Below the pieces are notes generated by a model, which was given only the letters and a program-made list of their open reading frames with translations, searched no databases and was not told where the DNA came from. A program made the position numbers and the translations under genes. From Allobosea sp. (GTDB taxonomy: Bacteria; Pseudomonadota; Alphaproteobacteria; Rhizobiales; Beijerinckiaceae), in contig NZ_JAFKFX010000023.1 of NCBI RefSeq assembly GCF_017308075.1, positions 1-64,000 of the forward strand: DNA of 64,000 nucleotides, given 5' to 3'. This document shows, in pieces, positions 15,003 to 28,007 of the stretch (positions within the stretch are counted from its first letter, which is position 1; the number at the start of each line of letters is the position of its first letter).

Positions 15003-15107
15003 GCGCCGACAGAGATAGGCCTTTTCGAACGAAAAGGGAACGGTAGGCTCGCCTCATTCTGGGGCGATGCGCAGTGACGGCCCGACAATCTCGTGAGGAC
15101 GTCGGCC

Positions 15108-16064
15108 TCAGCGCTCCGCGACGACGATCAGCCCCGGCACAGGTTCGCCGCGGTCCATGCGGACGCTCTGTGGCTCGACCAGCATGGGTCTCAGCCGGGC
15201 CTGGCTGAGCGCTTCCCTGATCCAGCCTTCGGCATGGGCGAAACGACGATCCCGGCCGACAATGATGCCGGCGCCCTGATGACTCTGCACCGTGAAGGCA
15301 AGGAGGCCGCCCGTTTTGAGCACGCGCGCGCTCTGATGGAAACTCGGAGCAAGGTCTCCGAGATAGATGAAGACGTCGGTGGAGACGATGAGATCGGCCG
15401 ATGCGTCGGGCCGGCTCGCCAGGAAGGCGGTCAGGTCCGCAGTGGCGAGCTTGTCGTAGAGCGGGCTGCCATCGGCGCGCCTCTTGGCTTGCGCTTTGGC
15501 GATCATTCGGGGTGAGAGGTCGCAGCCGGCGAGGAACCCTGTCTCGGCGCGGATGGCTTCGCCCATCAGGCCGGTGCCGCAGCCGAGATCGAGGGCGCTT
15601 CCGAACTGGAAGGGCCCGCTGGCCTGTGCGCAATGGCGCACCAGCGCCTGCTTCAGCAATGCCGGGCCCTGATATTGCAACTTGCCGACGAGGTGGCTGT
15701 CGAAGCGCTCGGCATAACCGTCGAACAGCGCGCCTGAAAAACACTCCGAGGTCGCCTGCTCGGCGGCGAGCGCGCCGATGCGGGCGAGGTCGAGCCTGGC
15801 GCCGAGACGGTCGCTCGGATCGAGGTCGAGATATTGCCGCCAGGCGGTCGCGGCCTCCTCATTGTGCCCGAGCGCCTCCTGGGCCAGGCCATAGAGATGC
15901 CAGGCAGCGGTGAAACCGTAGTTCTCGGCGAGCGTTTGATCGAGGATGTCAAGCGCCGCCTGCGGATCGCCGGCCTTCAAGGCCTTCTCGGCCCAGGCAT
16001 AGCGGCGGTCGAGACGATCGTCGCCGGAACTGGCGGAGTACACGCTGCTGCCCTTTTCGATCAT
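15108..16064 (-). CDS. TPR-containing class I SAM-dependent methyltransferase
   Basis: A 318-residue protein. Residues 20-95 look like two or three TPR helices (YAWAEKALKAGDPQAALDIL, then AAWHLYGLAQEALGHNEEAA). The methyltransferase part starts near residue 110 with FDGYAERFDSHL and has motif I ALDLGCGTGLMGEAI near 155, then CDLSPRMIAKA and a post-motif VLKTGGLLAFT. The substrate is unknown. It is divergent from the exonuclease gene with only 36 bases between starts, so their promoters must overlap. It separates the two halves of the ligase-associated module, which makes a role in that pathway possible but unproven. Confidence 0.8.
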   Translation of the reverse strand: MIEKGSSVYSASSGDDRLDRRYAWAEKALKAGDPQAALDILDQTLAENYGFTAAWHLYGLAQEALGHNEEAATAWRQYLDLDPSDRLGARLDLARIGALAAEQATSECFSGALFDGYAERFDSHLVGKLQYQGPALLKQALVRHCAQASGPFQFGSALDLGCGTGLMGEAIRAETGFLAGCDLSPRMIAKAQAKRRADGSPLYDKLATADLTAFLASRPDASADLIVSTDVFIYLGDLAPSFHQSARVLKTGGLLAFTVQSHQGAGIIVGRDRRFAHAEGWIREALSQARLRPMLVEPQSVRMDRGEPVPGLIVVAER

Positions 16065-16100
16065 GCTGCGGGTTTAACGGAGGTGCATGACACAGGCCAG

Positions 16101-17159
16101 ATGATGAAGCCTTCCGATCTGCTGATTCCGACACCGGCCGGGCTCTACTGCCCGCTGGCCGATATCCATATCGACCCCGTTCGTCCGGTGGCGCGGGCAC
16201 TGATCACCCATGGCCATTCCGATCATGCGCGCGCCGGCCATGGCGCGGTCCTGGCGACATCAGAGACGTTGGCGATCATGGCGCTGCGCTATGGCGAGGC
16301 GTTCACCGGCTCGCGGCAGGTGGCGGCGCCCGGCGAAACCACTCGCATCGGGGAGGTCGATTTCCGCTTCGTCCCGGCCGGCCATGTCCTCGGTTCGGCG
16401 CAGATCGTGGTCGAGCACAAAGGTCTGCGCATCGTCGTCTCCGGTGATTATAAGCGCGAGCGCGACCCGACCTGCGCGCCCTTCGAGCCGGTCATCTGCG
16501 ACGTCTTCATCACCGAGGCGACCTTCGGCCTGCCGGTGTTCCGCCACCCGCCGGCGAGCGCCGAGACCGCCAAGCTGCTCGATTCCGTCCGGCTCTTTCC
16601 CGAGCGCACGCACATCGTCGGCGCCTATTCGCTGGGGAAGGCGCAGCGATTGATGGCGCTGATCCGCGAGGCCGGCTACGAGCGGCCGCTCTTCATCCAT
16701 GGCGCGGTCGAGAAGATCACCGAGCTCTACCAGGCCGAGGGCATCCCGCTCGGCGATGTCAGAAAGATCGAGCCCGGCGACCGCAAGGCCGAGGGACGCA
16801 AGGCATTTGCCGGGGAGATCGTCATCTGCCCGCCGAGTGCCATCCAGGACCTCTGGTCGCGCCGCTTCCCCGATCCCGTCACCGCCTTCGCCTCGGGCTG
16901 GATGCGGATCAGGGCCCGCGCCCGCCAGAAAGGCGTCGAATTGCCGTTGATCATCTCCGACCATGCCGATTGGGACGATCTCCAGGCGACGATCCGGGAG
17001 GTGCAGGCCGGCGAGATCTGGATCACCCATGGCGAGGCCGAGGCGCTGGCGCATTGGTGCGGCACTGTCGGGCTCAAGGGCATGCCGCTGCATCTCGTCG
17101 GCTATGGCGACGAGGGCGAGGCCGAGCCGGAGGGAAAGCCGGCGGAGGCGTCCGCATGA
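16101..17159 (+). CDS. Ligase-associated DNA damage response exonuclease (beta-CASP family)
   Basis: A metallo-beta-lactamase-fold nuclease of 352 residues. The metal motif H-x-H-x-D-H is HGHSDH at residues 37-42, later motifs are GHVLGSAQ near 94, SGDYK near 114, and a C-terminal ISDHADW and WITHGE. These are typical of beta-CASP nucleases such as the Ysh1/Artemis group. The start is ATG 16101 or 16104; GGAGG at 16079-16083 is too far for either and instead precedes a five-codon frame ending at 16104. The TGA overlaps the ligase ATG, so the pair is coupled. Confidence 0.88.
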   Translation: MMKPSDLLIPTPAGLYCPLADIHIDPVRPVARALITHGHSDHARAGHGAVLATSETLAIMALRYGEAFTGSRQVAAPGETTRIGEVDFRFVPAGHVLGSAQIVVEHKGLRIVVSGDYKRERDPTCAPFEPVICDVFITEATFGLPVFRHPPASAETAKLLDSVRLFPERTHIVGAYSLGKAQRLMALIREAGYERPLFIHGAVEKITELYQAEGIPLGDVRKIEPGDRKAEGRKAFAGEIVICPPSAIQDLWSRRFPDPVTAFASGWMRIRARARQKGVELPLIISDHADWDDLQATIREVQAGEIWITHGEAEALAHWCGTVGLKGMPLHLVGYGDEGEAEPEGKPAEASA

Positions 17160-18787
17160 ACCGCTTCGCCTGGCTGCTCGACCGCCTCGCCTATGAGCCG
17201 CGCCGCAACGGCAAGCTCGCGCTGATCGCGGACTATCTGCGCACCACGCCCGATCCCGATCGCGGCTATGCGCTGGCGGCGATGACCGGCGGGCTGGTCT
17301 TCCAGAACGCCAAGCCCGGCCTGATCCGCGCGCTGATCGCCGAGCGCACCGATCCTGTCCTTTTCGCGCTCTCCTACGACTATGTCGGCGATCTCTCCGA
17401 GACGGTCGCGCTGATGTGGCCGGCTCGGCATGGCGCCAACGACGTGCCGCATCTGCCCGATGTCGTCGCCGGACTGCAAAAGTCCGGCAAGACCGAGATG
17501 CCGCGCCTGATCGCCTCCTGGCTCGATGCGCTCGACGAGACCGGGCGCTGGGCCCTGCTCAAGCTGATCACCGGCGCCCTGCGCATCGGCGTCTCGGCCC
17601 GCCTTGCCAAGACCGCCGCCGCGAGCCTCGGCGGCATTCCCGCCGACGAGGTCGAGCAGGTCTGGCATGGGCTGGAGCCGCCCTATACCGCGCTCTTCGC
17701 CTGGCTGGAGGGCAGGGGCCCACGCCCGGAAGCGAGTGACCCCGCGCCATTCCGCCCGGTCATGCTCTCGCATGCCATCGAGGACGGCGATTTCGACAAG
17801 TTCGACGCGGCCGAATTCGCGGCCGAATGGAAATGGGACGGCATCCGCGTCCAGGCCGTTGCCGGCACGAGACCCGATGGCGGCCGCACCGTTCGTCTCT
17901 ATTCCCGCACCGGCGAGGAGATCGGCGCAGCGTTCCCGGATCTCACCGAGGCGCTGACGCAGGACGGCGCGCTCGACGGCGAATTGCTGGTGATGCGCGA
18001 TGGCACCGTCCAGAGTTTCAACACCCTGCAGCAGCGGCTCAACCGCAAGCAGGTCACCGCGAAGATGCTCGCCGGGTTCCCGGCCCATATCCGCGTCTAT
18101 GACCTTCTCGCCGAGGGCGACGAGGATCTGCGTGAGCTGAGCTATGTGGAGCGGCGCGTCCGGCTCGAAGCTTTCCTCGGCAGGCTGGGGAGTACGCGCT
18201 TCGATCTTTCGCCGCGCATTCCGTTCGCCAGCTGGGAAGAGCTGACGGTGGCCCGCGCCGATCCTGCTTCCGCCGGAGCTGGAGGCGATGCGGAGGCCGT
18301 CGAGGGCTGCATGCTCAAGCGGCTTGATTCGCCCTATCTGCCGGGCAGGCCGAAGGGCTACTGGTACAAGTGGAAGCGCGATGCGCGGCTCGTCGACTGC
18401 GTGCTGATGTATGCCCAGCGCGGCCACGGCAAGCGCTCCTCCTTCTATTCCGACTATACTTTCGGCGTCTGGCGGGTCGGCGAGACAGGCGCGGACGAGC
18501 TCGTTCCTGTGGGAAAGGCCTATTTCGGCTTCACCGACGAGGAGCTGATCGAGATCGACCGCTATGTCCGCAAGAACACGGAGAATCGTTTCGGTCCGGT
18601 GCGCGAGGTCACGCACACGGCTGTGAGCGGCCTCGTCTTCGAAGTGGCCTTCGAGGGGTTGCAGCGCTCGACGCGGCACAAATCCGGTCTCGCCATGCGC
18701 TTTCCCCGGATCAGCCGCATCCGCTGGGACAAGCCGCCGGGCGAGGCCGACCGGATCGAGACGCTGGAGGCGCTGCTGCCGGGCTAG
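17156..18787 (+). CDS. Cisplatin-type / ligase-associated ATP-dependent DNA ligase
   Basis: A 543-residue ligase. The adenylated lysine is Lys226 in EWKWDGIRVQ (motif K-x-D-G), preceded by a helical DNA-binding domain that begins MNRFAWLLDRLAYEP. Further motifs are LDGELLV (motif III), EGCMLKRLDSPY (motif IV) and YWYKWKRD (motif V). The C-terminal OB domain has FGPVREV and GLVFEVAFEG. The family is that found with the helicase, exonuclease and PdeM in many bacteria. It seals breaks independently of the NAD-dependent replicative ligase. The start at 17156 overlaps the exonuclease stop (ATGA). Confidence 0.92.
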   Translation: MNRFAWLLDRLAYEPRRNGKLALIADYLRTTPDPDRGYALAAMTGGLVFQNAKPGLIRALIAERTDPVLFALSYDYVGDLSETVALMWPARHGANDVPHLPDVVAGLQKSGKTEMPRLIASWLDALDETGRWALLKLITGALRIGVSARLAKTAAASLGGIPADEVEQVWHGLEPPYTALFAWLEGRGPRPEASDPAPFRPVMLSHAIEDGDFDKFDAAEFAAEWKWDGIRVQAVAGTRPDGGRTVRLYSRTGEEIGAAFPDLTEALTQDGALDGELLVMRDGTVQSFNTLQQRLNRKQVTAKMLAGFPAHIRVYDLLAEGDEDLRELSYVERRVRLEAFLGRLGSTRFDLSPRIPFASWEELTVARADPASAGAGGDAEAVEGCMLKRLDSPYLPGRPKGYWYKWKRDARLVDCVLMYAQRGHGKRSSFYSDYTFGVWRVGETGADELVPVGKAYFGFTDEELIEIDRYVRKNTENRFGPVREVTHTAVSGLVFEVAFEGLQRSTRHKSGLAMRFPRISRIRWDKPPGEADRIETLEALLPG

Positions 18788-18831
18788 ATCGCCGCGCGTC
18801 CGTTCGGACGCAGTCACGGTGATCTATCTCA

Positions 18832-18888
18832 GTGCTATCGCATCGGAGTTTTCCGAAAAGCGAAATCCACTTTTCGGTCCGATGCTAT
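18832..18888. repeat. Intergenic palindromic repeat (REP-like, Rhizobiales style)
   Basis: GCATCGGA and CCGAAAAG on the left are matched on the right by CTTTTCGG and TCCGATGC, enclosing CGAAATCCA, with a 5-base insertion in the left arm. Repeats containing the GCATCGGACCGAAAAG type core are scattered between genes in many Hyphomicrobiales. It lies after the ligase gene and could also act as a terminator. Only one copy of this type was noticed in the window. Confidence 0.65.
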
Positions 18889-19079
18889 AAGTCGTCCGGA
18901 GCTTCTCCGGCGTTCCCGGGCGGCGCCAGATCGGGCCTGGAAGGCGACGAATCCGTCGAGTTTCGGGCTCCGGCCATCCTTGCTGACCATTGGCCATTGA
19001 CAGCTTGGAGTTGCGGGCCTTGAACGTTCTGGGGGAATCGCGCCGGCATCTCGCCGGGCTTCGGCGCGTGGAGGGCATG

Positions 19080-19757
19080 ATGAGCGGGCATCCGACACGG
19101 ATCGTGATCGCGGACGACCACCCGCTGTTTCGCGGCGCGTTGCGCCAGGCGGTTTCGCATGCATTGGCGGGGGCCGAGGTCAGCGAGGTCGGCTCGCTCG
19201 AGGCGTTGGGCCAGGCATTGGCCGAGGCCGCCGATCTCGACCTGATCCTGCTCGACCTGACCATGCCCGGCGTGCAGGGCTTCTCCGGCCTGCTCTTCCT
19301 GCGCGCGGCCCATCCCGAGATTCCGGTCATCGTCGTCTCGGCCAATGACGATCCGGCGGTGATCCGCCGCTGCATCGAGTTCGGGGCGCTGGGTTTCCTG
19401 CCGAAGACCGCCGAGGTCGCACAGATGGGCGAGGCGATCCGCGCCGTGCTCGATGGCGGGGTCTGGACCCCGCCGGGCGTCGATCTCTCCGCGCCGGTCG
19501 ATCACGAGACCGCCGACATGGTCCGGCGCCTGGCGACTCTGACGCCGCAGCAGGTGCGCGTCCTGATGATGCTGTCCGAGGGGCTGCTCAACAAGCAGAT
19601 CGCCTATGAGCTCGGGGTTTCCGAGGCGACGGTCAAGGCGCATGTCTCGGCGATCCTGACCAAGCTCGATGTCGACAGCCGCACCCAGGCGGTGATCGCG
19701 GCCGCGAAGATCGCCGGCGCCGGCTGGGCCGCCGCCGGCGCTTCCGCGACGAGCTGA
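19080..19757 (+). CDS. LuxR/NarL-family response regulator
   Basis: A 225-residue protein. The receiver domain begins TRIVIADDHPLFR, has the phosphoacceptor Asp in LILLDLTMPGV near residue 52, and the conserved Lys in GFLPKTAE near 102. The C-terminal LuxR helix-turn-helix spans about residues 155-210 with LTPQQVRVLMML and NKQIAYELGVSEATVKAHV. The start is the second of two tandem ATGs, with GGAGGG about four bases upstream. No sensor kinase is adjacent, so the partner is unknown. A palindromic repeat separates it from the ligase gene. Confidence 0.9.
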   Translation: MSGHPTRIVIADDHPLFRGALRQAVSHALAGAEVSEVGSLEALGQALAEAADLDLILLDLTMPGVQGFSGLLFLRAAHPEIPVIVVSANDDPAVIRRCIEFGALGFLPKTAEVAQMGEAIRAVLDGGVWTPPGVDLSAPVDHETADMVRRLATLTPQQVRVLMMLSEGLLNKQIAYELGVSEATVKAHVSAILTKLDVDSRTQAVIAAAKIAGAGWAAAGASATS

Positions 19758-19876
19758 CGCCGCGCTTGCGGGGGACGCACGCTGTCGCTACCTGCAAAGG
19801 CAGGAGAGGCGCCGTTCAGGCTTGGTTCAAGCGGTGAATGGCTGGTCTCGGCCTCACTTTTCAAGAGGATTTCGGC

Positions 19877-20146
19877 ATGGCCAATGGCGGCATCGAGCGC
19901 TTTCTCGGCGGCTCCGTTCTCAGCGTCCTGGTGCGCCTGCTCTTCATCTCGCTCCTGGTCGGCGCGGCGATGGCCTTTCTTGGCCTGTCGCCGACCGGGC
20001 TCTATGAGAGTGCGTTGCGCTTCGTGCGCTCGCTCGGCAATCTCGGCTTCGGCGCGGTGCGCGAGGTCGGCGGCTGGGCGGTGGCCGGCGCGCTGATCGT
20101 CATACCGCTCTGGTTGATCAGCCGGCTCTTCGCCTCGCGGCGCTAG
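19877..20146 (+). CDS. Small integral membrane protein, DUF6460-like
   Basis: The product has 89 residues and starts MANGGIERFLGGSVLSVL. AGAGG-like AAGAGG lies eight bases before the ATG. Two hydrophobic segments (about residues 15-38 and 65-82) flank an amphipathic middle with GLYESALRFVRSLG. The sequence resembles the short DUF6460 proteins of Hyphomicrobiales, of unknown role. An in-frame ATG 39 bases upstream is less well supported. A perfect hairpin follows the gene. Confidence 0.6.
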   Translation: MANGGIERFLGGSVLSVLVRLLFISLLVGAAMAFLGLSPTGLYESALRFVRSLGNLGFGAVREVGGWAVAGALIVIPLWLISRLFASRR

Positions 20147-20154
20147 GCGGGGGT

Positions 20155-20180
20155 GACCGGAGGTTCTGCGACCTCCGGTC
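20155..20180. terminator. Bidirectional hairpin between convergent genes
   Basis: GACCGGAGGT and ACCTCCGGTC form a perfect 10-bp stem with a 6-base loop, 8 bases after the DUF6460-like stop and 12 bases before the cupredoxin stop on the other strand. There is no T-run, so its efficiency as an intrinsic terminator is uncertain, but the placement fits a shared terminator. Confidence 0.65.
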
Positions 20181-20192
20181 GATCGTCGCAGG

Positions 20193-20528
20193 TCACGGCA
20201 GCACGGCGAGCTTTGCCGTCATGCCGGGGTGGAAGCGACAGATGATATCGACGGCGCCGGCCCTGGTGACCGTGCAGCGGCCTTCGGTACTGGCCGGAAG
20301 ATCGACATCGAAGGACTTGTCGCGCGCCGTCGCCGTGTGCCGGACGGGGTCGCGATTGATCCAGGAGATGCTGTCGCCGACTCGGACCTCGCTCGGCATC
20401 GGCCCGAATTTCATCTTGTCGATCAGAACCGCGTGGCTGCGTGGCTCGGCCCGCGCCGGCCGTACCAGTGCGATGATGGTACCGCCGATCGTCAGCAATG
20501 CGCTGCGCCGGGAAGGAAGGGGCGCCAT
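20193..20528 (-). CDS. Cupredoxin-domain (amicyanin-like) periplasmic protein
   Basis: A 111-residue protein with an N-terminal export signal (RRSALLTIGGTIIALVRPARA). The type 1 copper ligands are present: His in VRHTATA and then Cys, His and Met in CRFHPGM, with the amicyanin-type spacing C-x2-H-x2-M. It should carry electrons or bind copper in the periplasm. The ATG overlaps the stop of the DUF4142 gene (TGATG), so both are made from the same ECF-type promoter proposed at 21094-21121. Confidence 0.85.
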   Translation of the reverse strand: MAPLPSRRSALLTIGGTIIALVRPARAEPRSHAVLIDKMKFGPMPSEVRVGDSISWINRDPVRHTATARDKSFDVDLPASTEGRCTVTRAGAVDIICRFHPGMTAKLAVLP

Positions 20529-21046
20529 CACTTCACCGTCTGCGCGAGATGCTCGGCATGCGTCTGATGCGCCGTGAACAGCGCCAATCCGCTTTCGAGC
20601 AGCGCCTTGAGCTCGCCATTATGCGCGCCCGGGATCAGCGCCGTGCTGAGGGCCTGGTTGACCGTACGGTGATAGGCGATTTCGTTGGCGACATAGGCGC
20701 GATCGAAAGCCGCCCCCGAAAGCTTCCTGAGACGCTTTTCGGCCTGCGCCGCCTGCTTGGTCAGGCCCGCGCTGGTCCCATTCGCCTCCGGCTTCACATT
20801 GAGACGCTTGACGAGGGACAGGGCCTTCTCGTTGACCGCGGCATGGTCGCGGGCCATCAGCTCGGCGAAATCCCGGACTTCGGCATTTTTCGTCTTCGCC
20901 AGCGCGAGTTTGGCGGCGTCGACATCGATCTGCCCGGCCGTATAGGCGATATGGGCGATCTGGGGATCGCTGAGCTGCGAATCATGGGCGAAGGCCGCGC
21001 CGGTCGTGATCGCGAGGGCGGCGGCAAGAACGAGCAGTCTGGACAT
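20528..21046 (-). CDS. DUF4142-domain exported protein (ferritin-like helical bundle)
   Basis: The product has 172 residues, with a signal peptide MSRLLVLAAALAITTGAAFA ending near AFA-H. The mature part is four long helices with FAELMARDHAAVNEKAL, which is the DUF4142 signature, and FDRAYVANEIAYHRTVNQAL. DUF4142 proteins are periplasmic, of unknown activity, and often stress-induced. The start is ATG 21046, chosen because it begins the signal peptide. The gene is coupled to the cupredoxin gene and preceded by an ECF-like promoter. Confidence 0.85.
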   Translation of the reverse strand: MSRLLVLAAALAITTGAAFAHDSQLSDPQIAHIAYTAGQIDVDAAKLALAKTKNAEVRDFAELMARDHAAVNEKALSLVKRLNVKPEANGTSAGLTKQAAQAEKRLRKLSGAAFDRAYVANEIAYHRTVNQALSTALIPGAHNGELKALLESGLALFTAHQTHAEHLAQTVK

Positions 21047-21093
21047 GGTGTGGCTCCGTGGCTTGCCGGGGCATCGATCGCCCCGGCAAGCCA

Positions 21094-21121
21094 TTCGATG
21101 GCGCAGCGCAACCAAGGTTCC
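21094..21121 (-). promoter_or_regulatory. ECF-sigma-type promoter for DUF4142-cupredoxin
   Basis: On the minus strand GGAACCT at 21121-21115 is followed by 16 bases and TCGAA at 21098-21094. It has the same architecture as two promoters 700 bases away that face folE and the sigma gene. The -10 lies 48 bases before the DUF4142 ATG. Confidence 0.7.
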
Positions 21122-21133
21122 CGCAGGCGGCGC

Positions 21134-21778
21134 TCAGTGGTCGAGCGCCTCCAACACCTCGCGCCGTGCCCCGGGGGCGGTGTAGAGGCCGCGGAAGGCG
21201 CGGGTGACGAGCGCGCTGCCATGCTTGCGCACGCCGCGCGAGGACATGCAGGCATGGCTCGCCTGCAGCACGACGGCGACGCCTCGCGGCTCGAGTTCGG
21301 CCTCGATCGCGTCGGCGATCTCGGCCGTCAGTCGCTCCTGGATCTGCAGACGATGCGCCAGCGCATCGACCAGCCGCGCGAGCTTGGAGATGCCGACGAC
21401 GCGCTCGCGCGGCAGATAGGCGATATGCGCGACCCCGCTGATCGCCGCCATATGATGCTCGCAGACCGATTCAAGCGGGATGTCGCGCAGCAGGACCAGC
21501 TCGTCATAACCGCCGGTCTCGCCGAATGTCCGTCGTAGGATCGCCCCGGGATCCTGCGCATAGCCGGCGAACCATTCCTCATATGCCCGCACCACGCGGG
21601 CGGGCGTTTCGAGCAGGCCTTCGCGCGCCGGATCGTCTCCGGCCCAGGAGATCAGAGTGCGTATCGCGGCTTCTGCTTCGGCGCGGGTCGCGCGCTGCGG
21701 CGAAAATCCCGGCGGCCGCGAGCAGGAGCACGCCTCCTCCGAAGCCGGAACAGGTGATAGAAGGGATCGAACGGTCAC
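21134..21778 (-). CDS. folE: GTP cyclohydrolase I (type IA, zinc form)
   Basis: A 214-residue enzyme that makes dihydroneopterin triphosphate from GTP, the first step of folate and pterin synthesis. Zinc ligands are present in ESVCEHHM (Cys and His) and in ASHACMSSRGVRKHG (Cys). LVDALAHRLQIQERL and GVAVVLQASHACM are family signatures. The N-terminus has an unusual Cys/Ser stretch (EEACSCSRPPG). The start is GTG 21778, set by GGAGGAG six bases upstream. It is read from an ECF-type promoter divergent from the sigma gene, so it may be a stress-induced copy. Confidence 0.93.
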   Translation of the reverse strand: MTVRSLLSPVPASEEACSCSRPPGFSPQRATRAEAEAAIRTLISWAGDDPAREGLLETPARVVRAYEEWFAGYAQDPGAILRRTFGETGGYDELVLLRDIPLESVCEHHMAAISGVAHIAYLPRERVVGISKLARLVDALAHRLQIQERLTAEIADAIEAELEPRGVAVVLQASHACMSSRGVRKHGSALVTRAFRGLYTAPGARREVLEALDH

Positions 21779-21810
21779 GCTTGGCTCCTCCGAATGCTTG
21801 TCGATCCCCG

Positions 21811-21838
21811 TTCGATGCGCCGGGGCGAAAGAAGTTCC
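21811..21838 (-). promoter_or_regulatory. ECF-sigma-type promoter for folE
   Basis: GGAACTT at 21838-21832, a 16-base spacer, and TCGAA at 21815-21811 on the minus strand, with the folE GTG 33 bases downstream of the -10. The -35 is one arm of an inverted repeat, GTTCCCGG with CCGGGAAC (21834-21860), whose other arm is the -35 of the divergent sigma promoter. Confidence 0.72.
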
Positions 21839-21855
21839 CGGCCCGGAGCCCCCCG

Positions 21856-21883
21856 GGAACCTTTGTGCGCCGCGCGCATCCAA
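21856..21883 (+). promoter_or_regulatory. ECF-sigma-type promoter for the sigma factor gene
   Basis: GGAACCT at 21856-21862, a 16-base spacer, and TCCAA at 21879-21883 on the plus strand. The sigma gene ATG is 25 bases downstream of the -10. The match to the folE and DUF4142 promoters suggests that the sigma factor drives its own transcription. Confidence 0.7.
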
Positions 21884-21907
21884 TCGCCGTTTGCAGGAGA
21901 ACGGCTC

Positions 21908-22630
21908 ATGCTGGAAGTTCCGAGGAGCAGGCCGCTCGCCTGCGAGGCGATGAGCGAGGCGGAACTCGTCGCTCGCGCTCGTCGGCGCGAGCGCGGCGCC
22001 TTCCGAGTCATCATGCAGCGGCACAATCAGGGCCTGTTCCGGGTTGCGCGCAGCATCGTCGCCGACGAGGCCGAGGCCGAGGATATCCTCCAGGAAAGCT
22101 ATGTCCGGGCCTTCGCGGCGCTCGATGGCTTCCGCGGCGCGTCCAGCCTGCTGACCTGGCTGACGCGGATCGTCATCAACGAGGCGCGCGGCAGGCTGCG
22201 CCGCCGCCGGCGTGCCACGGTCGAACTCGATCAGGTCGAAACAGCGCAGGCGGCGGGGGCCGCCGTCGTCGCCTTTCCCGGAGGACAAGCGATGGACGAT
22301 CCGGAAGCCGCCATGGCCCGGGCTCAGATCCGCCTGCTGATCGAACGGGCGATCGACGCTCTGCCCGAGCCGTTCCGGCTCGTCTTCATTTTGCGCGAGG
22401 TGCAGGAATGCTCGGTCGAGGAGACGGCCGAGCTGACCGGAATTCGCCCCGAGACGGTCAAGACGCGACTCCATCGCGCACGCCGCCTATTGCGCCTCGC
22501 CTTGAACGAAACCCTGGCCTCGACCATGCACGAGACCTTTCCTTTTCTCGGCCGGTGCTGCGAGAGGATCACCGCCGCCGTCCTCGACAGGCTGGCGCCG
22601 CTTCAGGGCTGGGAGCCCGGGCCGGGCTGA
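21908..22630 (+). CDS. ECF-type RNA polymerase sigma factor
   Basis: A 240-residue sigma-70-family protein. Region 2 spans about residues 18-90 with DEAEAEDILQESYVRAF and a WLTRIVINEARGRLRRR segment. Region 4 spans about 140-195 with LPEPFRLVFILREVQ and VEETAELTGIRPETVKTRL. There is no region 3. A C-terminal tail (HETFPFLGRCCERITAAV) carries a Cys pair that could sense redox or metal state. The start is ATG 21908 with AGGAGA seven bases upstream. No anti-sigma gene is adjacent, which is unusual for an ECF factor. Confidence 0.9.
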   Translation: MLEVPRSRPLACEAMSEAELVARARRRERGAFRVIMQRHNQGLFRVARSIVADEAEAEDILQESYVRAFAALDGFRGASSLLTWLTRIVINEARGRLRRRRRATVELDQVETAQAAGAAVVAFPGGQAMDDPEAAMARAQIRLLIERAIDALPEPFRLVFILREVQECSVEETAELTGIRPETVKTRLHRARRLLRLALNETLASTMHETFPFLGRCCERITAAVLDRLAPLQGWEPGPG

Positions 22631-22638
22631 GCCCGGCC
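22620..22638. terminator. Hairpin overlapping the sigma-gene stop codon
   Basis: GGCCGGGC pairs perfectly with GCCCGGCC around a 3-base loop that is the TGA stop of the sigma gene, followed by GCCTTTC. pyrD ends 14 bases further on from the other strand, so this can serve both genes. Confidence 0.6.
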
Positions 22639-22643
22639 GCCTT

Positions 22644-23732
22644 TCAGAGCGTCTCGCCGCGTGCGATCTCGGCAGCGTCGCGCCCGACCAGCGCGCTGAG
22701 GCGCGGCAGTCCGGCCTTGCGCGCCTCCGTGGCGAGGCCCTGCTTGATCTCGCAGACCAGGCCCGGCCCCTTGAACACCATCGCCGAATAGAACTGCACT
22801 AGGCTCGCCCCGGCCCGGACCTTGGCGAAGGCGGTCCGGGCGGAATCGATGCCGCCGACGCCGACCAGCGGGAAGCGCCCCTCGACGCGCAGGAAGGTTT
22901 CGGCGAGGAGCCTGGTCGAGGGCGCATAGAGCGGCTTGCCCGAAAGCCCGCCGGTCTCGGCCTTCGCCGCGTTGCGCAGGCTGTCGGGGCGCGCCACCGT
23001 GGTGTTGGAGACGATCATGCCGTCGATGCGACGCTTCAGTGCGACGGATACCATGCTGTCGAGCTCGGGTAGGCTGAGATCGGGCGCGATCTTGAGCAGG
23101 ATCGGCGTCGCCCGCCCTTGCGCACGGACTTCATCGCGCGCCGCGAGCACGCGTGCGATCAGGTCGTCGAGCGCGCTTTCGGCCTGCAGGTCGCGCAGGC
23201 CGGGCGTGTTCGGCGAGGAGATGTTGACGGTCAGGAAATCCGCCAGCGGCGCCAGCCGGCGCGTCAGCACCGCATAATCGGCGCTGCGGTCGGCCGAATC
23301 CTTGTTGGCGCCGAGATTGACCCCGACGATGCCGCCACGGCGCCGGCGCGCGGCCAGCCGCGCCGCCACCGCCTCCATGCCTTCGCTGTTGAGGCCGTAG
23401 CGGTTGATCACGGCCTCGTCCTCCGGCAGGCGGAAGACGCGTGGGCGGGCATTGCCCGGCTGGGGCAGCGGCGTCACGCCACCGACCTCGACGAAGCCGA
23501 AGCCGAGGCCGAGCGTGCCGTCGATCGCCTCGGCATGCTTGTCGAAGCCGGCCGCGAGTCCGACCGGGTTCGGGAAGCGCAGGCCGAAGGCATCGACCGC
23601 GAGTGCCGGATCGTCGGCGGCCGGGCGCAGCGCCGGCGCCTTGGCCAGAGCCGCCACGGCGAGCTTGTGCGCCGTCTCGGCATCGAGTTTGTGGATCAGC
23701 GGCCGTGCGAGGCCGAACAGCGTGCCGATCAC
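22644..23732 (-). CDS. pyrD: Dihydroorotate dehydrogenase (quinone), class 2
   Basis: The product has 362 residues and oxidises dihydroorotate to orotate in pyrimidine synthesis, giving electrons to quinone at the inner membrane. The N-terminal amphipathic helix ([20 protein letters not shown]) is the class 2 membrane anchor. [11 protein letters not shown] and [15 protein letters not shown] bind FMN, the catalytic Ser lies in [15 protein letters not shown], and [11 protein letters not shown] follows. The start is GTG 23732, overlapping the DUF952 stop (GTGA). It ends convergent with the sigma gene. Confidence 0.95.
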
Positions 23733-24085
23733 CTGATATCCTCCGGAAAGAGATGGCCCGCTGCACCGAGCGGCAATGGCGCGATCCAGCGCGCCTGCTT
23801 CGGGTCGAGCATGGCATAGAGATGCGGGAACAGCGCCCCACCGCGCGAGGGCTCATAGCGCAGCCTGTCGCCGAGCCTGGTCGGGTCGACGGCGATCAGC
23901 AATAGCCCTGCCTGCCCGGCGAAATGCCTGGCGGCGGTTTCGCGGGCCTGAGCGCCGGTCGAGAAATGGATATAGCCATCAGCGAGGTCGATGGGGGCGC
24001 CGGCGAAGACACCGGCGCGTTCAGCCTCGCGCCAGAGTGCCTCGGGGCAGATCTTGTAGATCAGCGAAGGGGGGGAGAGCAGCAT
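23729..24085 (-). CDS. DUF952-domain protein
   Basis: The product has about 118 residues. It has the DUF952 core [20 protein letters not shown], then [19 protein letters not shown] and a central [19 protein letters not shown], ending [10 protein letters not shown]. Members are small cytoplasmic proteins that resemble the ADP-ribosyl-transferase/RNA 2'-phosphotransferase fold; the activity is unknown. The ATG at 24085 gives eight residues before IYKI; ATGs at 24097 and 24127 are alternatives. The stop overlaps the pyrD GTG, so the two form an operon. Confidence 0.8.
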
Positions 24086-24400
24086 GCCCGAGGGCATATC
24101 CCCTGTGCTCACCCGGTAAAAGCCCAAACCGGGAGCGTCCGCAAAAACATCGCAGGTGACTGCGGCCGGCTGGAAATCCCGATGCTCCGTCCATATCGGG
24201 CTTTGGCCGTTTCGCGACGGACGGCGGTGCGAGGCGGCGATGAAAACGGCAAAAATCAGATTGCAGTCTTATGCGATAGGGGATATTTCCTATGGTATTC
24301 CCATGCCGACCATGACAAGGCAGTTTCACCGACCCGGCCGTCGCGACCTCGTCGGATGCGGCGCCGGCCCGTCGATGCCGCCAGGAAAGTGACATTGGCC
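24086..24400. other. Divergent intergenic region between DUF952-pyrD and the S24 regulator
   Basis: It holds no credible gene. The central part is AT-richer than its surroundings and contains the imperfect palindromes described separately at 24276-24302. It must carry the promoters for both flanking operons. Confidence 0.5.
24276..24302. promoter_or_regulatory. Candidate operator of the S24/HTH regulator
   Basis: ATAGGGGATATTTCCTAT is an 18-bp imperfect palindrome (14 of 18 positions symmetric), followed directly by GGTATTCCC, which repeats the half-site in inverted form. It lies about 100 bases before the regulator start. Autoregulation is the likely role, by analogy with C2/LexA-type repressors. 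Confidence 0.45.
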
Positions 24401-25027
24401 ATGCTGTCCCATGACCAGATCTGGAGCGCGATCGATCAGCTCGCCCAGCGCTATGGCCTGACGCCATCGGGGCTCGCCCGCAAGGCCGGCCTCGACGCGA
24501 CGACCTTCAACCGCTCCAAGCGCGTCGGTTCCGACGGGCGCGAGCGCTGGCCTTCGACCGAATCGATCGCCAAGATTCTCGCTGCGACCGGAGCGAGCTT
24601 CGATCAGTTCATGAACGCGGTCCGGCGCGGCGCGGCACCCACCCACACCATCCCGTTGATCGGCTTCGCCCAGGCCGGATCCGGCGGTTTCTTCGACGAT
24701 GGCGGCTTCCCGGCGGGAACCGGATGGGACGAGGTCGCCTTTCCCGGTATCGCCGACGAGAAGGCCTATGCGCTGGAGATCGCCGGGGATTCGATGCTGC
24801 CGCTCTATCGCGACGGCGATACCATCATCGTCTCCCCGGCCGCGGCGGTCCGGCGCGGCGACCGGGTGGTGGTCAAGACCGTCGATGGCGAGGTCCTGGC
24901 CAAGCAGCTCAGGCGGCAGACGGCAAAGACGGTCGAGCTGGCCTCGCTGAACCCCGACCATCCCGACCGGGTGCTGGCGCTCTCCGAGATCGCCTTCATG
25001 GCGCGGGTTATCTGGGCGAGCCAATAG
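24401..25027 (+). CDS. S24-family (LexA/C2-like) repressor with helix-turn-helix
   Basis: A 208-residue protein. The helix-turn-helix is in residues 10-75 with GLTPSGLARKAGLDATTFNRS. The C-terminal peptidase fold has the catalytic Ser in EIAGDSMLPLYRDGD near residue 130 and the Lys in GEVLAKQL near 170. A likely self-cleavage Ala-Gly bond lies in AQAGSGG. Such proteins are found as phage repressors and also as stand-alone stress regulators in Hyphomicrobiales; no prophage genes are adjacent. ATG 24401 is used, but TTG 24395 is better spaced from AGGA at 24383. Confidence 0.85.
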   Translation: MLSHDQIWSAIDQLAQRYGLTPSGLARKAGLDATTFNRSKRVGSDGRERWPSTESIAKILAATGASFDQFMNAVRRGAAPTHTIPLIGFAQAGSGGFFDDGGFPAGTGWDEVAFPGIADEKAYALEIAGDSMLPLYRDGDTIIVSPAAAVRRGDRVVVKTVDGEVLAKQLRRQTAKTVELASLNPDHPDRVLALSEIAFMARVIWASQ

Positions 25028-25028
25028 G

Positions 25029-25056
25029 CCGGGGCTCGGCCGGGCGTCGGCCCCGG
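25029..25056. terminator. Hairpin between convergent S24 and histidine kinase genes
   Basis: CCGGGGC at 25029-25035 pairs with GCCCCGG at 25050-25056 across a 14-base GC-rich loop. It lies between two convergent stops with 39 bases between them. There is no T-run, so this is a weak call. Confidence 0.4.
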
Positions 25057-25066
25057 GGGGAGATGT

Positions 25067-26521
25067 TCAGGGGCGGGCCTTGTGCCCGGGCAAGGACACC
25101 TTGAACACGGCGCCGAGCTCGGACGGCTCGAGATGGATCATGCCGCCATGCAGCCGCACGAGTTCGGCAGCGATGGCGAGGCCGAGCCCGGTGCCGCCCG
25201 GGGTGACCGAGCCGCGAAAGGCCTGGAACAGGTTCTGGCGCGCCCGTGCCGGGACGCCGGGGCCGTTATCGGCGACGCGCAGCACGAGTTCGCTGCCCTC
25301 GTAGCCGCCGCTGATCACCAGCGACGGTGCCCGACCATCCTCCAACGTGCCGTCCTCCAACGCGCGGATCGCGTTGCGCATCAGGTTGGAGAGCACGCGC
25401 GCCATCTGGTCGGGGTCGACATTGGCGACGAGCTCTGCCGGCACCTGGTTGACGAAGCCGATCTTGCCGTTCTCGCTCAGCCCGAGCAATTCGGCCTGTT
25501 CGGCGACGAGCTGGCGCAAGACCACCTCGCGCAACTGCGGGGTCGCCTCCGCCGCGCGGCCATAGGCCAGCGTCGCCTGGCAGAACTCGATCGCCCGGTC
25601 GAGCGTCGCGATCAGCCGAGGCGCGAAGCTGCGAATCTTGGTGTCGCGGGTTTCGGTCAGGCGGTCAGACATGAGCTGCGCCGCCGCCAGCATATTGCGC
25701 AGATCATGGTTGATCTTGCTGACCGCCAGCCCGAGCTCGGCGAGGTGCTTCTTGGCGCGCAGATCACTGGCCAGCGTCGCCTGCATGCGGGCCAGGGCCC
25801 GTTCGGCCTCGCCGACCTCGTCGACCCGGTTCGACGGGGTGATGATCCGGTAGGGGTTCTCCGGATCGTTCTCGAACTCCATGACATTGGCGGCGAGATG
25901 CCGGATCGGCGTCACGATAAGCCAGTTCAGCGCGAAATAGATCACCCCGGCGCTCAGTGCCGAAATCAGCAGCGAGATCAGCAGCAGGTTCCACGAGAAT
26001 TTCAGCATCGCCCGGCGCAACGGTGCCTCGTCGATCACCAGCTCGACGAAATCGGCGGCGCCGACGGCTTGCCCGACCACGCGGATCGGCAACTTATGGG
26101 CCGGCCGCAGCAGCATGGAGACCGCTTCCATGATCGAGCCCATTCGGCTCAGATTGCGCAGGTCGACCGTCTGCGCGACTTCGGGCGGCATCGCGTCGAG
26201 GCTGAGCAGACGGCGTGCTCCGCCGACGCGCGCGGCGATCGCCCGTGCGCCGACGCCGGCGAGGAGCCGTTCCTCGCTGCCCTCCGGCAAGCCGTTATTC
26301 GGCGCGCCCTCGAGCACGAGCACGGCGATCTGCGCCGCGGCGAGCCGGTCATTCAGCCAGGAGCGACGGAAGGTCGCGACGGAGGGCAGATAGATCAGCA
26401 CCTCGGCCAGCATCACGAAGAGCGTCGTCAGGACCAGCAGCTTGGCCGACAGGCCGAGGCGCGTCAGTCCTCGTGGAAGGCTGATCGACAGGTTACGGTG
26501 ATCGAACTCTCTCTCCGGCAT
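25067..26521 (-). CDS. Membrane sensor histidine kinase
   Basis: The product has 484 residues. A first membrane helix lies near residues 25-46 (LLVLTTLFVMLAEVLIYL) and a second near 175-198 (LLLISLLISALSAGVIYF), with a periplasmic sensor between them. A HAMP-like segment follows with TPIRHLAANVMEFE. The phosphoacceptor His is in KINHDLRNM, and the ATPase has the N box NLMRNAIRAL, G1 VADNGPGV and G2 GGTGLGLAIA. No response regulator gene is adjacent. It starts 10 bases after the flavoprotein gene on the same strand, so the two are probably cotranscribed, and a redox link is possible. Confidence 0.9.
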   Translation of the reverse strand: MPEREFDHRNLSISLPRGLTRLGLSAKLLVLTTLFVMLAEVLIYLPSVATFRRSWLNDRLAAAQIAVLVLEGAPNNGLPEGSEERLLAGVGARAIAARVGGARRLLSLDAMPPEVAQTVDLRNLSRMGSIMEAVSMLLRPAHKLPIRVVGQAVGAADFVELVIDEAPLRRAMLKFSWNLLLISLLISALSAGVIYFALNWLIVTPIRHLAANVMEFENDPENPYRIITPSNRVDEVGEAERALARMQATLASDLRAKKHLAELGLAVSKINHDLRNMLAAAQLMSDRLTETRDTKIRSFAPRLIATLDRAIEFCQATLAYGRAAEATPQLREVVLRQLVAEQAELLGLSENGKIGFVNQVPAELVANVDPDQMARVLSNLMRNAIRALEDGTLEDGRAPSLVISGGYEGSELVLRVADNGPGVPARARQNLFQAFRGSVTPGGTGLGLAIAAELVRLHGGMIHLEPSELGAVFKVSLPGHKARP

Positions 26522-26531
26522 ATGGCGCAGT

Positions 26532-28007
26532 CTATCCGAAGCGCCGCAGGAAGCCGATCAGGCGGCGCAGGCCGGGCCGCGAGGCGAGGGGAGTGTGAAC
26601 TGACAGCGCGGCGCGCTTCGAGATCTCCGACAATGTCGGCGCGGGCAGGGCGAGATCGGCGACATCCCTGACGTTGAGGCGCTGGCGCACCGCCAGGCTC
26701 CAGAGCCCGATCAGTTCGCCTGCCTGCGCGCCGACGATGGTCACGCCGAGAATATGCCCCCTTCGGTCGGTCACGACCTTGATCAACCCCTCGCTGCGGC
26801 CTTCGGCCCTGGCCCGCTCGTTCTCGGCATAGGGCCAGCGCAACACCCCGATCGTGCCCTGTAGGCGCGCCTCGGCTTCGGAAAGGCCAAGGCTCGCCAG
26901 TTCGGGCTGGCTGAGAGTCAGCCGTGGGAGAGCGGCGCGCGTGGCGTTGACCGGCAGGCGAAACAGCGCGTTGCGCACCACGAGGCCGGCATGGTGCTCG
27001 CCAGCATGCCCGCAGGGGGGGGGGCCGGCGATGCGGGCGCAGTCGCCGATGGCGAAGATGCGACGGTTGGCGGTGCGCAGGCCTCGGTCGACCGTAATGC
27101 CGCTGTCGTCGGCGCGGATGCCGGCGAGGTCGAGATCGAGCCCGGCGAGCCGTGGCTTGCGGCCGTTCGCGAGCAGCAGATGCGTCCCCTCCACCGCAGT
27201 TTCGGCGGCGTTCTCCTCCCGCGGCGCGAGAACGAGGCGAGGGCGGTGGCGGGCGCTCTCTGCCCGTAGCAATTCACGGCCCTCGTGCAGGACGACGCCG
27301 TCGCGCAGCAAGGCGCGCCGGATGAGGTCGCAAGCCTCCGGGTCTTCCTGCGGCAGCAGGCCCTCCGGCAGGATCAGCACGACTTCGCTGCCGAGCCGAC
27401 GCATCGCCTGGGCGATCTCGACGCCCGCCGGTTCGCCGCCGAGGACGAGCAGCCTCTCCGGCCAGCGCGGCGCCACCATGAGCGTCTCGACGGTCAGGAA
27501 GGGCAGTTCGGCAAGGCCGGGCACGGAGGGCGCGGCCGGCTGCGCGCCGAGCGCTATGACGAAGCGCCGTGCCCTGATCCGGTGCTCGCCGGCCGCGAGG
27601 GTGTGGCGATTGAGGAAATGGGGCTCGCCCCGCAGCTGGACGATGCCGAGCGCAGCCAGGCGCTCGGCCGAGCCGTTCAGCGCCAGCGTGTCGGCGAGCC
27701 GCTCGGCCTGTCCGCGCAATTGCGCCGCGTCGACCTGCGGCTCGCCGAGAGACAGGCCGAAGCGGCCGGCTTCGCGGAGCGCCGAAAGTCTCTGCGCGGC
27801 AGCGGCGAGCGCGACGCATGCGCTGGAGCCGGTGACGGGTTGTTCGGCGCCGTCGGTGGCGGGTGGCGTCACCAGCACGACGGAGACGCCGAACAGCGCC
27901 GCGGTGGTCGCGACCGTGAGCGCCCCGGGGCCGGTGCCGACGACGCAGATGTCTGGGGTCATCGGCCCGGGCCTGGCCAATGCGTGGGCGGTTTCGGTCA
28001 ACGCCAC
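26532..28007 (-). CDS. FAD/NAD-dependent oxidoreductase of the disulfide-reductase family, atypical
   Basis: The product has 491 residues with the layout of lipoamide dehydrogenase/mercuric reductase: DICVVGTGPGALTVA for FAD near residue 20, LVLGGEPAGVEIAQAM for NAD near 178, IFAIGDCA near 315, and a C-terminal dimerisation domain. The redox pair C-x4-C is not intact: the region reads VTGSSACVALAAA, with one Cys only and no following PSK. The C-terminal HPT-x-x-E is LPAPTLSE, lacking the His base. It therefore probably does not reduce disulfides. The start is GTG 28007; ATG 27962, just before the FAD motif, is an alternative. Confidence 0.75.
   Translation of the reverse strand: MALTETAHALARPGPMTPDICVVGTGPGALTVATTAALFGVSVVLVTPPATDGAEQPVTGSSACVALAAAAQRLSALREAGRFGLSLGEPQVDAAQLRGQAERLADTLALNGSAERLAALGIVQLRGEPHFLNRHTLAAGEHRIRARRFVIALGAQPAAPSVPGLAELPFLTVETLMVAPRWPERLLVLGGEPAGVEIAQAMRRLGSEVVLILPEGLLPQEDPEACDLIRRALLRDGVVLHEGRELLRAESARHRPRLVLAPREENAAETAVEGTHLLLANGRKPRLAGLDLDLAGIRADDSGITVDRGLRTANRRIFAIGDCARIAGPPPCGHAGEHHAGLVVRNALFRLPVNATRAALPRLTLSQPELASLGLSEAEARLQGTIGVLRWPYAENERARAEGRSEGLIKVVTDRRGHILGVTIVGAQAGELIGLWSLAVRQRLNVRDVADLALPAPTLSEISKRAALSVHTPLASRPGLRRLIGFLRRFG

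Follow-up and report, generated by a model that had tools for sequence, protein, structure and literature searches.

The locus studied here sets the gene for an ECF sigma factor divergent to a folE gene and a DUF4142-cupredoxin gene pair, and raises the question of which genes this sigma factor serves and by what its own activity is set. The window (the whole stretch of DNA analysed, 64,000 nucleotides) had been given a preliminary description in which an autoregulated sigma factor drives an alternative folE and the copper-binding pair from three promoters of common form. Sequence comparison strongly supports a predicted regulon in which sigma, folE and DUF4142-cupredoxin lie under one promoter type; the features are collected in Table 1.

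Table 1. Features of the locus, in window positions
Feature	Position	Strand	Remarks
Four-gene unit absent from nearest relative compared	20147..22643		blastn of 15000-28000 vs. G108, G011 and G062 stretches
Cupredoxin (amicyanin-like), overlaps DUF4142 stop	20193..20531	-	Pfam and NCBIfam matches below cut-offs
DUF4142 protein, 172 aa, conserved His/Asp/Glu	20528..21046	-	PF13628 1.4e-35
ECF29-type DUF4142-cupredoxin promoter	21094..21122	-	GGGAACCTTGGTTGCGCTGCGCCATCGAA; exact motif; matrix 23.9, rank 3
Second folE, GTP cyclohydrolase I, 214 aa, GTG start	21134..21778	-	TIGR00063 194.6 bits, cut-off 181.6
ECF29-type folE promoter	21811..21839	-	GGGAACTTCTTTCGCCCCGGCGCATCGAA; exact motif; matrix 28.0, rank 2
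Inverted repeat from two divergent GGGAAC -35 boxes	21834..21860		read from sequence
ECF29-type sigma-gene promoter	21855..21883	+	GGGAACCTTTGTGCGCCGCGCGCATCCAA; exact motif; matrix 37.7, rank 1/127,944
ECF29-type sigma factor, 240 aa	21908..22630	+	ATG 21908; SD-like GGAG just upstream
Tail motif F211-P-F-x-G-x-x-C218	22538..22561	+	C218 codon 22559-22561

Three promoters of one type

The promoters had been described as GGAACYT-N16-TCSAA at 21121-21094 (minus strand), 21838-21811 (minus strand) and 21856-21883 (plus strand), and both the strands and the 16-base spacers were confirmed. The -10 element reads CATCSAA at all three sites, and the DUF4142-cupredoxin promoter sits in the gap that separates the end of folE from the start of DUF4142. 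The further remark that nothing similar had been noticed elsewhere held for one form of the pattern and failed for another. Bare GGAACYT-N16-TCSAA has five exact matches in the window's own genome (5,551,342 bases), three of them at this locus, vs. two in the reversed control, and is thus not unique, whereas GGAACYT-N14-CATCNAA, with the longer -10 of the family, has exactly three exact matches in the genome, all of them here. Specificity was lost when two mismatches were tolerated: the genome then yielded 67 matches vs. 58 in the control, and the window 14 vs. 8.3 expected, with 14 or more occurring in 4 of 100 shuffles. Across 25 genomes or records (three plasmid records together with 22 of the 36 genomes that have a sigma match; two of the plasmids, from Aminobacter, show no sigma gene), GGGAACNT-N14-CATCNAA gave 39 matches distributed over 22 of them and none in the control.

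A matrix of 29 positions was built from 27 sigma promoters in 27 named loci of other species, none being from the window. The training sites, which lie before sigma genes, were chosen by the form GGGAAC-N16-CATCNAA, which agrees with the published consensus; the matrix therefore tests rank and position relative to genes, and not the form itself. The three promoters took the first three ranks among 127,944 positions in the window, and the fourth-best position scored 8.3. Over all 80 named loci, 96 sites exceeded 15 (the 27 training sites included), and 91 of these were near the sigma gene, i.e., within -1300 to +1700 of the sigma match; the remaining five preceded DUF4142 (three), folE (one) and an unidentified ORF (one). 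Chance or a coding artefact as the origin of the three sites was ruled out by the matrix rank together with the zero control matches. In other genomes an ECF29-type site recurs before the corresponding genes: corresponding sigma genes carry it, in keeping with the proposed autoregulation, and so do corresponding DUF4142-cupredoxin genes, which likewise favours that pair as a predicted target.

The sigma factor as a member of ECF29

The sigma protein matched NCBIfam PRK11922 at 271.6 bits (cut-off 204) as well as Pfam Sigma70_r2 and Sigma70_r4_2. The rpoE8 locus of Sinorhizobium meliloti 1021 was located on pSymB by its published promoter, and a 6-kb locus was compared; its sigma product is 45% identical to that of the window over 230 aa (tblastn), and the DUF4142 protein and cupredoxin are 56% and 39% identical, respectively. 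Because the window genes match the RpoE8 locus in this way, the sigma factor is, judged by its sequence, an ECF29 member and kin of RpoE8, an assignment resting on that kinship, the promoter and the neighbours. RpoE8 (SMb20592) is placed in ECF29, with SMb20593 and AmcY as neighbours, and the ECF29/RpoE8 promoter consensus is GGGAAC / GCATCCAA (PMC6180224, cited throughout for its available portions). In the window, 21855-21883 reads GGGAAC...GCATCCAA, and a DUF4142-type protein and a blue copper protein adjoin, the cupredoxin models scoring below their cut-offs. EcfQ of Bradyrhizobium was considered as closest kin and dropped, as its promoter elements differ and the available part of its source assigns it to class 33.

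One rpoE8 transcription start has been mapped behind the GGGAAC / GCATCCAA motif in S. meliloti; SMb20593 also carries the motif, yet its start could not be mapped, and amcY rose in nodules of an rpoE8-SMb20593 deletion strain (PMC6180224). When rpoE8 was overexpressed 126-fold, no target was raised; the portions available report no RpoE8 target and no candidate anti-sigma factor for ECF29, and describe the control of RpoE8 as a mystery (PMC6180224). The null result fits a sigma factor that needs activation, and also one that is inactive in S. meliloti.

The preliminary description had noted that no anti-sigma gene is adjacent, and this stands: no anti-sigma-like protein was found by Pfam and NCBIfam among seven scanned (the sigma factor and the products of folE, DUF4142, cupredoxin, pyrD, the DUF6460 gene and the response regulator gene), and an unlinked one could exist. 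No second sigma factor of ECF29 kind was found in the window's own genome.

The DUF4142-cupredoxin pair

In the DUF4142 protein, H68, H126, H160 and H163 are conserved in 48/48 sequences, and the N-terminus resembles an export signal. The window cupredoxin carries a Cys-x2-His-x2-Met ligand motif, and Cys-x2-His-x2-Met/Gln occurs in 46 of the 47 cupredoxins of fetched loci. The unit is flanked by pyrD on one side and by the DUF6460 gene and the response regulator gene on the other.

A second folE and its clade

By family match and ligands, the window folE is taken to encode a GTP cyclohydrolase I (FolE, type IA); its C106, H109 and C177 are invariant in alignments and are presumably the zinc ligands of that enzyme (two Cys, one His). 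It is one of two PF01227 genes in its genome, the other being the canonical copy. The earlier label of an alternative folE is apt, given this second copy besides the canonical one, and the ECF29-type promoters that precede folE in other genomes favour the gene as a predicted target. Of the 61 genus genomes, 60 yielded a canonical folE, which is 52-59% identical to the window copy; a further paralogue (39% identity) is present in three genus genomes.

The 80 named loci, the best 80 of at least 399 confirmed candidates, include 13 with a folE match; nine of the matches are nearby genes for the same type of enzyme. These nine lie within ~1.7 kb of the sigma gene, in Thermomonas, an unclassified Pseudomonadota MAG, Phenylobacterium, Sphingobium, Ferrovibrio, Nitratireductor, two Afipia and a Hyphomicrobiales MAG. 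The folE of L251, L264 and L266 are of a distant type (33-37% identity), and that of L232 is ~4 kb from its sigma gene and groups with ordinary folE; the matrix found no ECF29-type site before folE in L232, L251 or L264. Matrix scores before folE were highest in Ferrovibrio (36.8), Nitratireductor (32.8), L279 (31.0) and Afipia L200 (24.2), followed by L196 (23.5), Sphingobium (22.6), both Aminobacter plasmids (21.6) and Thermomonas (15.0). In Afipia L202 (7.5) and Phenylobacterium L245 (-1.5) the motif is present but its spacer is off by one base, being shorter or longer, and the folE of L194, which has no ECF29-type site, may be read on from sigma. A Rieske and pyridine-nucleotide oxidoreductase (~510-570 aa; Rieske-FAD) accompanies ECF29-linked folE in L083, L192, L194, L200 and L202; the gene is missing from the window unit.

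A search of 72,556 plasmids with folE at a limit of 1e-60 gave one record, that of an Aminobacter plasmid which has the order folE-DUF4142-cupredoxin, ECF29 motifs before folE and DUF4142, and no sigma gene in the stretch compared; the gene order is shared by another plasmid from Aminobacter. In a tree of 62 FolE, nine ECF29-linked proteins, the window's included, form a clade with support of 100/99, two of the nine (Aminobacter) being linked by promoter and neighbours and not by a sigma gene. The tree needs two label changes vs. 11.1 in shuffles, with 0 of 500 shuffles as low. The FolE of the two Afipia and the Hyphomicrobiales MAG fall outside the clade, and the Afipia folE is best read from its sequence as having joined ECF29 separately.

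A folE-profile search of 385 genomes of the class, in which the sigma gene was not used, gave scores that do not separate the clade from other folE. Among 29 other folE loci then fetched, two were flagged: L279, which has a sigma gene and the motif and falls in the ECF29-linked clade, and L294, which has only a motif-like site ~630 bases upstream and falls outside it. In the enlarged tree, from which one Aminobacter copy was omitted, 9/9 clade members are ECF29-linked (support 99/94; two changes vs. 11.2), and nine of the ten members across both trees have a site of at least 15 before folE. The sister group (three genes, one family) is not ECF29-linked; L245, L247 and L220 are long branches of unsure placement. 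The trees thus gather ECF29-linked folE from Alpha- and Gammaproteobacteria, the window's among them, into a clade that is separate from the remaining folE sampled.

The canonical folE of Bosea was also considered. An ECF29-type site (matrix above 10) lies ~132 bases before it in 10 of 59 Bosea genomes, i.e., in 6/8 sigma carriers vs. 4/51 genomes without sigma; the same test by mismatches gave 6/8 vs. 4/52 (Fisher 1e-4). The six carriers present in the 62-FolE tree lie in one 8-row group. When kinship was controlled for, the DNA tree needed four label changes and independent pairs were not significant; since kinship thus removes the significance, the correlation between canonical folE and sigma is a lead and not evidence. 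A strong site precedes canonical folE, with and without sigma, in L045, L049, L050, L053, L054, L059, L115 and L117; it is weaker in L055 and L121, and decayed in L052 and L043.

Distribution and other output modules

At E<=1e-25, 8 of the 61 genus genomes have a sigma match, as do 4 of 60 in the family sample and 26 of 199 in the order sample, the window's own genome being counted each time. Six of the order matches (L035-L040, 34-35% identity) were set aside as other ECF factors in which the tail is absent. DUF4142 accompanies sigma in 17 of 29 closer relatives, for which short flanks were compared, and, among the best 80 of at least 399 confirmed candidates, DUF4142 is present in 50 and cupredoxin in 49.

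Other genes also adjoin ECF29-like factors or their sites. A TTHB210-like exported protein, often together with a plastocyanin-type cupredoxin, stands behind ECF29-type sites in L159 (a Microvirga lotononidis plasmid), L220, L223, L230 and L254, and constitutes a second ECF29 output module. A Ferritin_2-type protein adjoins ECF29-like factors in L256, L242, L266 and L247, three of the four also having cytochrome c; the site before sigma in L256 and L266 reads GGAACG with a spacer one base longer. In L158 (genome G306), far from the sigma locus, an ECF29-type site at 2496-2524 on the minus strand lies ~150 bases before a truncated globin, whose sequence we read as carrying a Tat-like signal, so that it is probably exported. 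The ferritin-like/cytochrome c, TTHB210-like/cupredoxin, Rieske-FAD oxidoreductase and exported globin genes all point to periplasmic redox or metal chemistry.

Origin of the unit

Genome G108 has no sigma match, and its canonical folE is the closest to the window genome's own copy among the genus genomes compared (96%). Its flanking DNA is continuous with that of the window, with 49 bases replacing 20147-22643. What lies between pyrD and the DUF6460 gene differs among Bosea genomes (L311, L312, L313); G011 has a transporter and an HxlR-like regulator there and G062 an acetyltransferase, these gene names being our reading of the translations. From its sequence, the complete regulon appears as one insertion or deletion unit of ~2.5 kb at a variable site.

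Seven other sigma factors of this kind were found in the genus, of which L010 was left out of the sigma tree (90 rows, built by a quick method that left 37 of 87 forks open). The other six all fall in a starred 44-row group (98), from which the window's is absent; L006, from the same family, is likewise not a member. The window sigma is in none of the starred sets that comprise half the rows or fewer, and its nearest kin, with Inquilinus, Phenylobacterium, Brevundimonas and Thermomonas as candidates, are unsure. Given the gap in G108 and the position of the window sigma outside the other Bosea ECF29 group, the unit looks horizontally acquired, and transfer into the Bosea lineage is its most likely origin.

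The sigma C-terminal tail

After region 4 the sigma factor carries a tail, which in relatives has the form F-P-F-x-G-x-R-C. It was compared in 107 proteins, comprising the window's, those of all 80 named loci, and 26 of 29 relatives (L010, L023 and L025 were left out). C218 is conserved in 107/107, and at no other position do eight or more of them have Cys; position 217 is R in 102/107, and Cys only in the window protein (codon 22556-22558). Of the Cys pair put forward as a possible sensor in the preliminary description, C218 is therefore conserved, and C217 is peculiar to the window protein. Cys217 gives that protein a vicinal CC unique among the 107. The tail is absent from two other ECF factors found in the same genome and from six distant ECF proteins.

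The AlphaFold model of the sigma factor (pLDDT 88.3; pTM 0.68, i.e., unsure on domain arrangement) has a helix at 215-232 and block mean pLDDT values of 78, 95 and 73, and a fold search with it listed ECF and other sigma factors first. None of 30 PDB sequence matches reaches past profile position 213, and none of them covers the tail. A role of the tail, through C218, as a sensor or metal ligand is the weaker part of our reading. The null overexpression of RpoE8 and an invariant tail cysteine are together what an on-board sensor would look like; counting against tail sensing, one cysteine cannot make an internal disulphide. A single Cys is compatible with metal binding, a mixed disulphide, another modification or a purely structural role.

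Proposed regulon and alternatives

We put at about 0.8 the probability that the locus is a self-contained, most likely transferred ECF29 regulon, with the stress response and tail-set activity outlined here included. Active sigma factor would amplify its own synthesis, and would drive extra GTP cyclohydrolase, and hence pterin/folate supply, along with periplasmic metal-site proteins, in what may be an answer to redox or copper stress. The C-terminal tail might set the activity of the sigma factor, perhaps with C218 as sensor or metal ligand, which could be why there is no anti-sigma factor. As signal we favour oxidative or copper stress, from the chemistry of the neighbouring proteins and by analogy with Rhodobacter, where GTP cyclohydrolase is a target of the singlet-oxygen factor RpoE (PMC7074977, available portions). 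A bolder version, which we hold tentatively and think rather unlikely in full, makes ECF29 a one-protein switch: the cysteine of FPFxGxRC would sense an oxidant, an electrophile or copper and turn on a mobile module of periplasmic copper or ferritin-like proteins and a dedicated GTP cyclohydrolase, the co-travelling FolE being a stress-adapted isoenzyme that outlasts the housekeeping FolE. If true, cells would meet periplasmic redox or metal stress partly by supplying pterins. Counting against the regulon as proposed, folE of this type is close to ECF29 in a minority of loci (9/80, among the best 80 of at least 399).

The promoter assignments could be read in other ways. The 8-bp arms GTTCCCGG / CCGGGAAC at 21834-21860 were correctly described as the -35 boxes of folE and sigma, and they could form an operator through which a dimeric regulator governs both divergent promoters. 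However, each arm is itself a -35 box, so any divergent pair at this spacing yields an inverted repeat, and the DUF4142 promoter holds a single copy; we regard an operator as very improbable. EcfG, the general stress factor of ECF15, has a -35 of GGAAC, a -10 of CGTT and a PhyR-NepR partner switch. The shared GGAAC would allow the three sites to be general stress promoters and the local sigma factor a passenger, but the -10 here is CATCNAA and not CGTT, and across the 80 loci the motif goes with the sigma gene (91 of 96 high sites near it, 27 of them training sites); together with the lack of PhyR or NepR among the seven proteins scanned, this led us to reject EcfG, to which we assign hardly any probability. 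It is also improbable, if a shade less so, that folE merely adjoins sigma and owes its promoter match to chance or to the back-to-back GGGAAC boxes. The minority of ECF29 loci with a linked folE, and the loss of significance of the canonical-folE correlation once kinship is considered, would suit a bystander. Against this, the folE site is second-best of 127,944 with a matrix not trained on it, sites precede folE in Ferrovibrio, Nitratireductor, the Aminobacter plasmids, Sphingobium, Thermomonas and others, and there is a dedicated FolE clade.

A more serious alternative accepts the regulon and concerns its control. The sigma factor might be regulated by amount alone, through another regulator or promoter, or by an anti-sigma factor that is encoded elsewhere or escapes recognition, the tail then being structural; we give this a little less than even odds. 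The strong match to the autoregulatory promoter and the lack of any other conserved Cys in the sigma factor are in its favour, as is a review that files ECF29 under 'others' in its set of factors with regulatory extensions and gives no mechanism in the portions available (PMC8999054). Counting against it are the invariance of C218 in all 107 proteins, while the tail is missing from the two own-genome and six distant ECF proteins, and the failure of rpoE8, when overexpressed by itself, to raise any target (PMC6180224).

Significance

The ECF29 group, its promoter and its DUF4142-cupredoxin partners are already known. Beyond print, as far as searched, are the recurrent dedicated folE under an ECF29 promoter and the single-segment, probably transferred regulon: neither was found in the open PMC papers, in their available portions, to which this absence is limited, and the word folE is absent from PMC6180224 and PMC8999054. 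With three promoters, four genes, and no second such sigma factor found in the genome, the window is a compact test case; folE is a metabolic target with an assayable product, the way a dedicated folE clade recurs gives a fresh hint at the role of ECF29, and the invariant tail Cys offers one residue to test.

Comparison with known systems

The promoter of RpoE-ChrR (ECF11) differs from the ECF29 type, and no ChrR-like protein was found among the seven scanned, so that system was rejected. RpoE of Rhodobacter sphaeroides also owns the zinc anti-sigma factor ChrR (PMC8999054, available portions, as below) and has another target set. The folE clusters under LitR/LOV in Pseudomonas are alike in that folE belongs to a wider light-induced set, with photolyase and an FAD oxidoreductase, but there a LitR/CarH-family regulator acts on sigma-70-type promoters in place of an ECF factor (PMC9758184, available portions). 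CorE and CorE2 (ECF238) of Myxococcus xanthus, which are switched by copper or cadmium/zinc, share with the window the lack of an anti-sigma factor, Cys in a C-terminal extension and a link to copper proteins (PMC8999054). Unlike the window protein, with its one invariant Cys, they possess both a Cys-rich domain and a CXC motif within the sigma2-sigma4 linker (PMC8999054); CXC occurs in 0/107 of the proteins compared here and C218 is the sole conserved Cys, and a CorE-like assignment was rejected.

RpoE8 remains the closest comparison. It is unlike the window in having no folE match within the 6-kb locus, in the co-directional order of its three genes (here, folE and DUF4142-cupredoxin are divergent to sigma), and in that its overexpression showed no regulon (PMC6180224). 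Like the window, it combines the sigma factor, DUF4142 and cupredoxin genes, at the identities given above, without an anti-sigma gene, and has GGGAAC/GCATCCAA before both the sigma gene and the DUF4142 gene.
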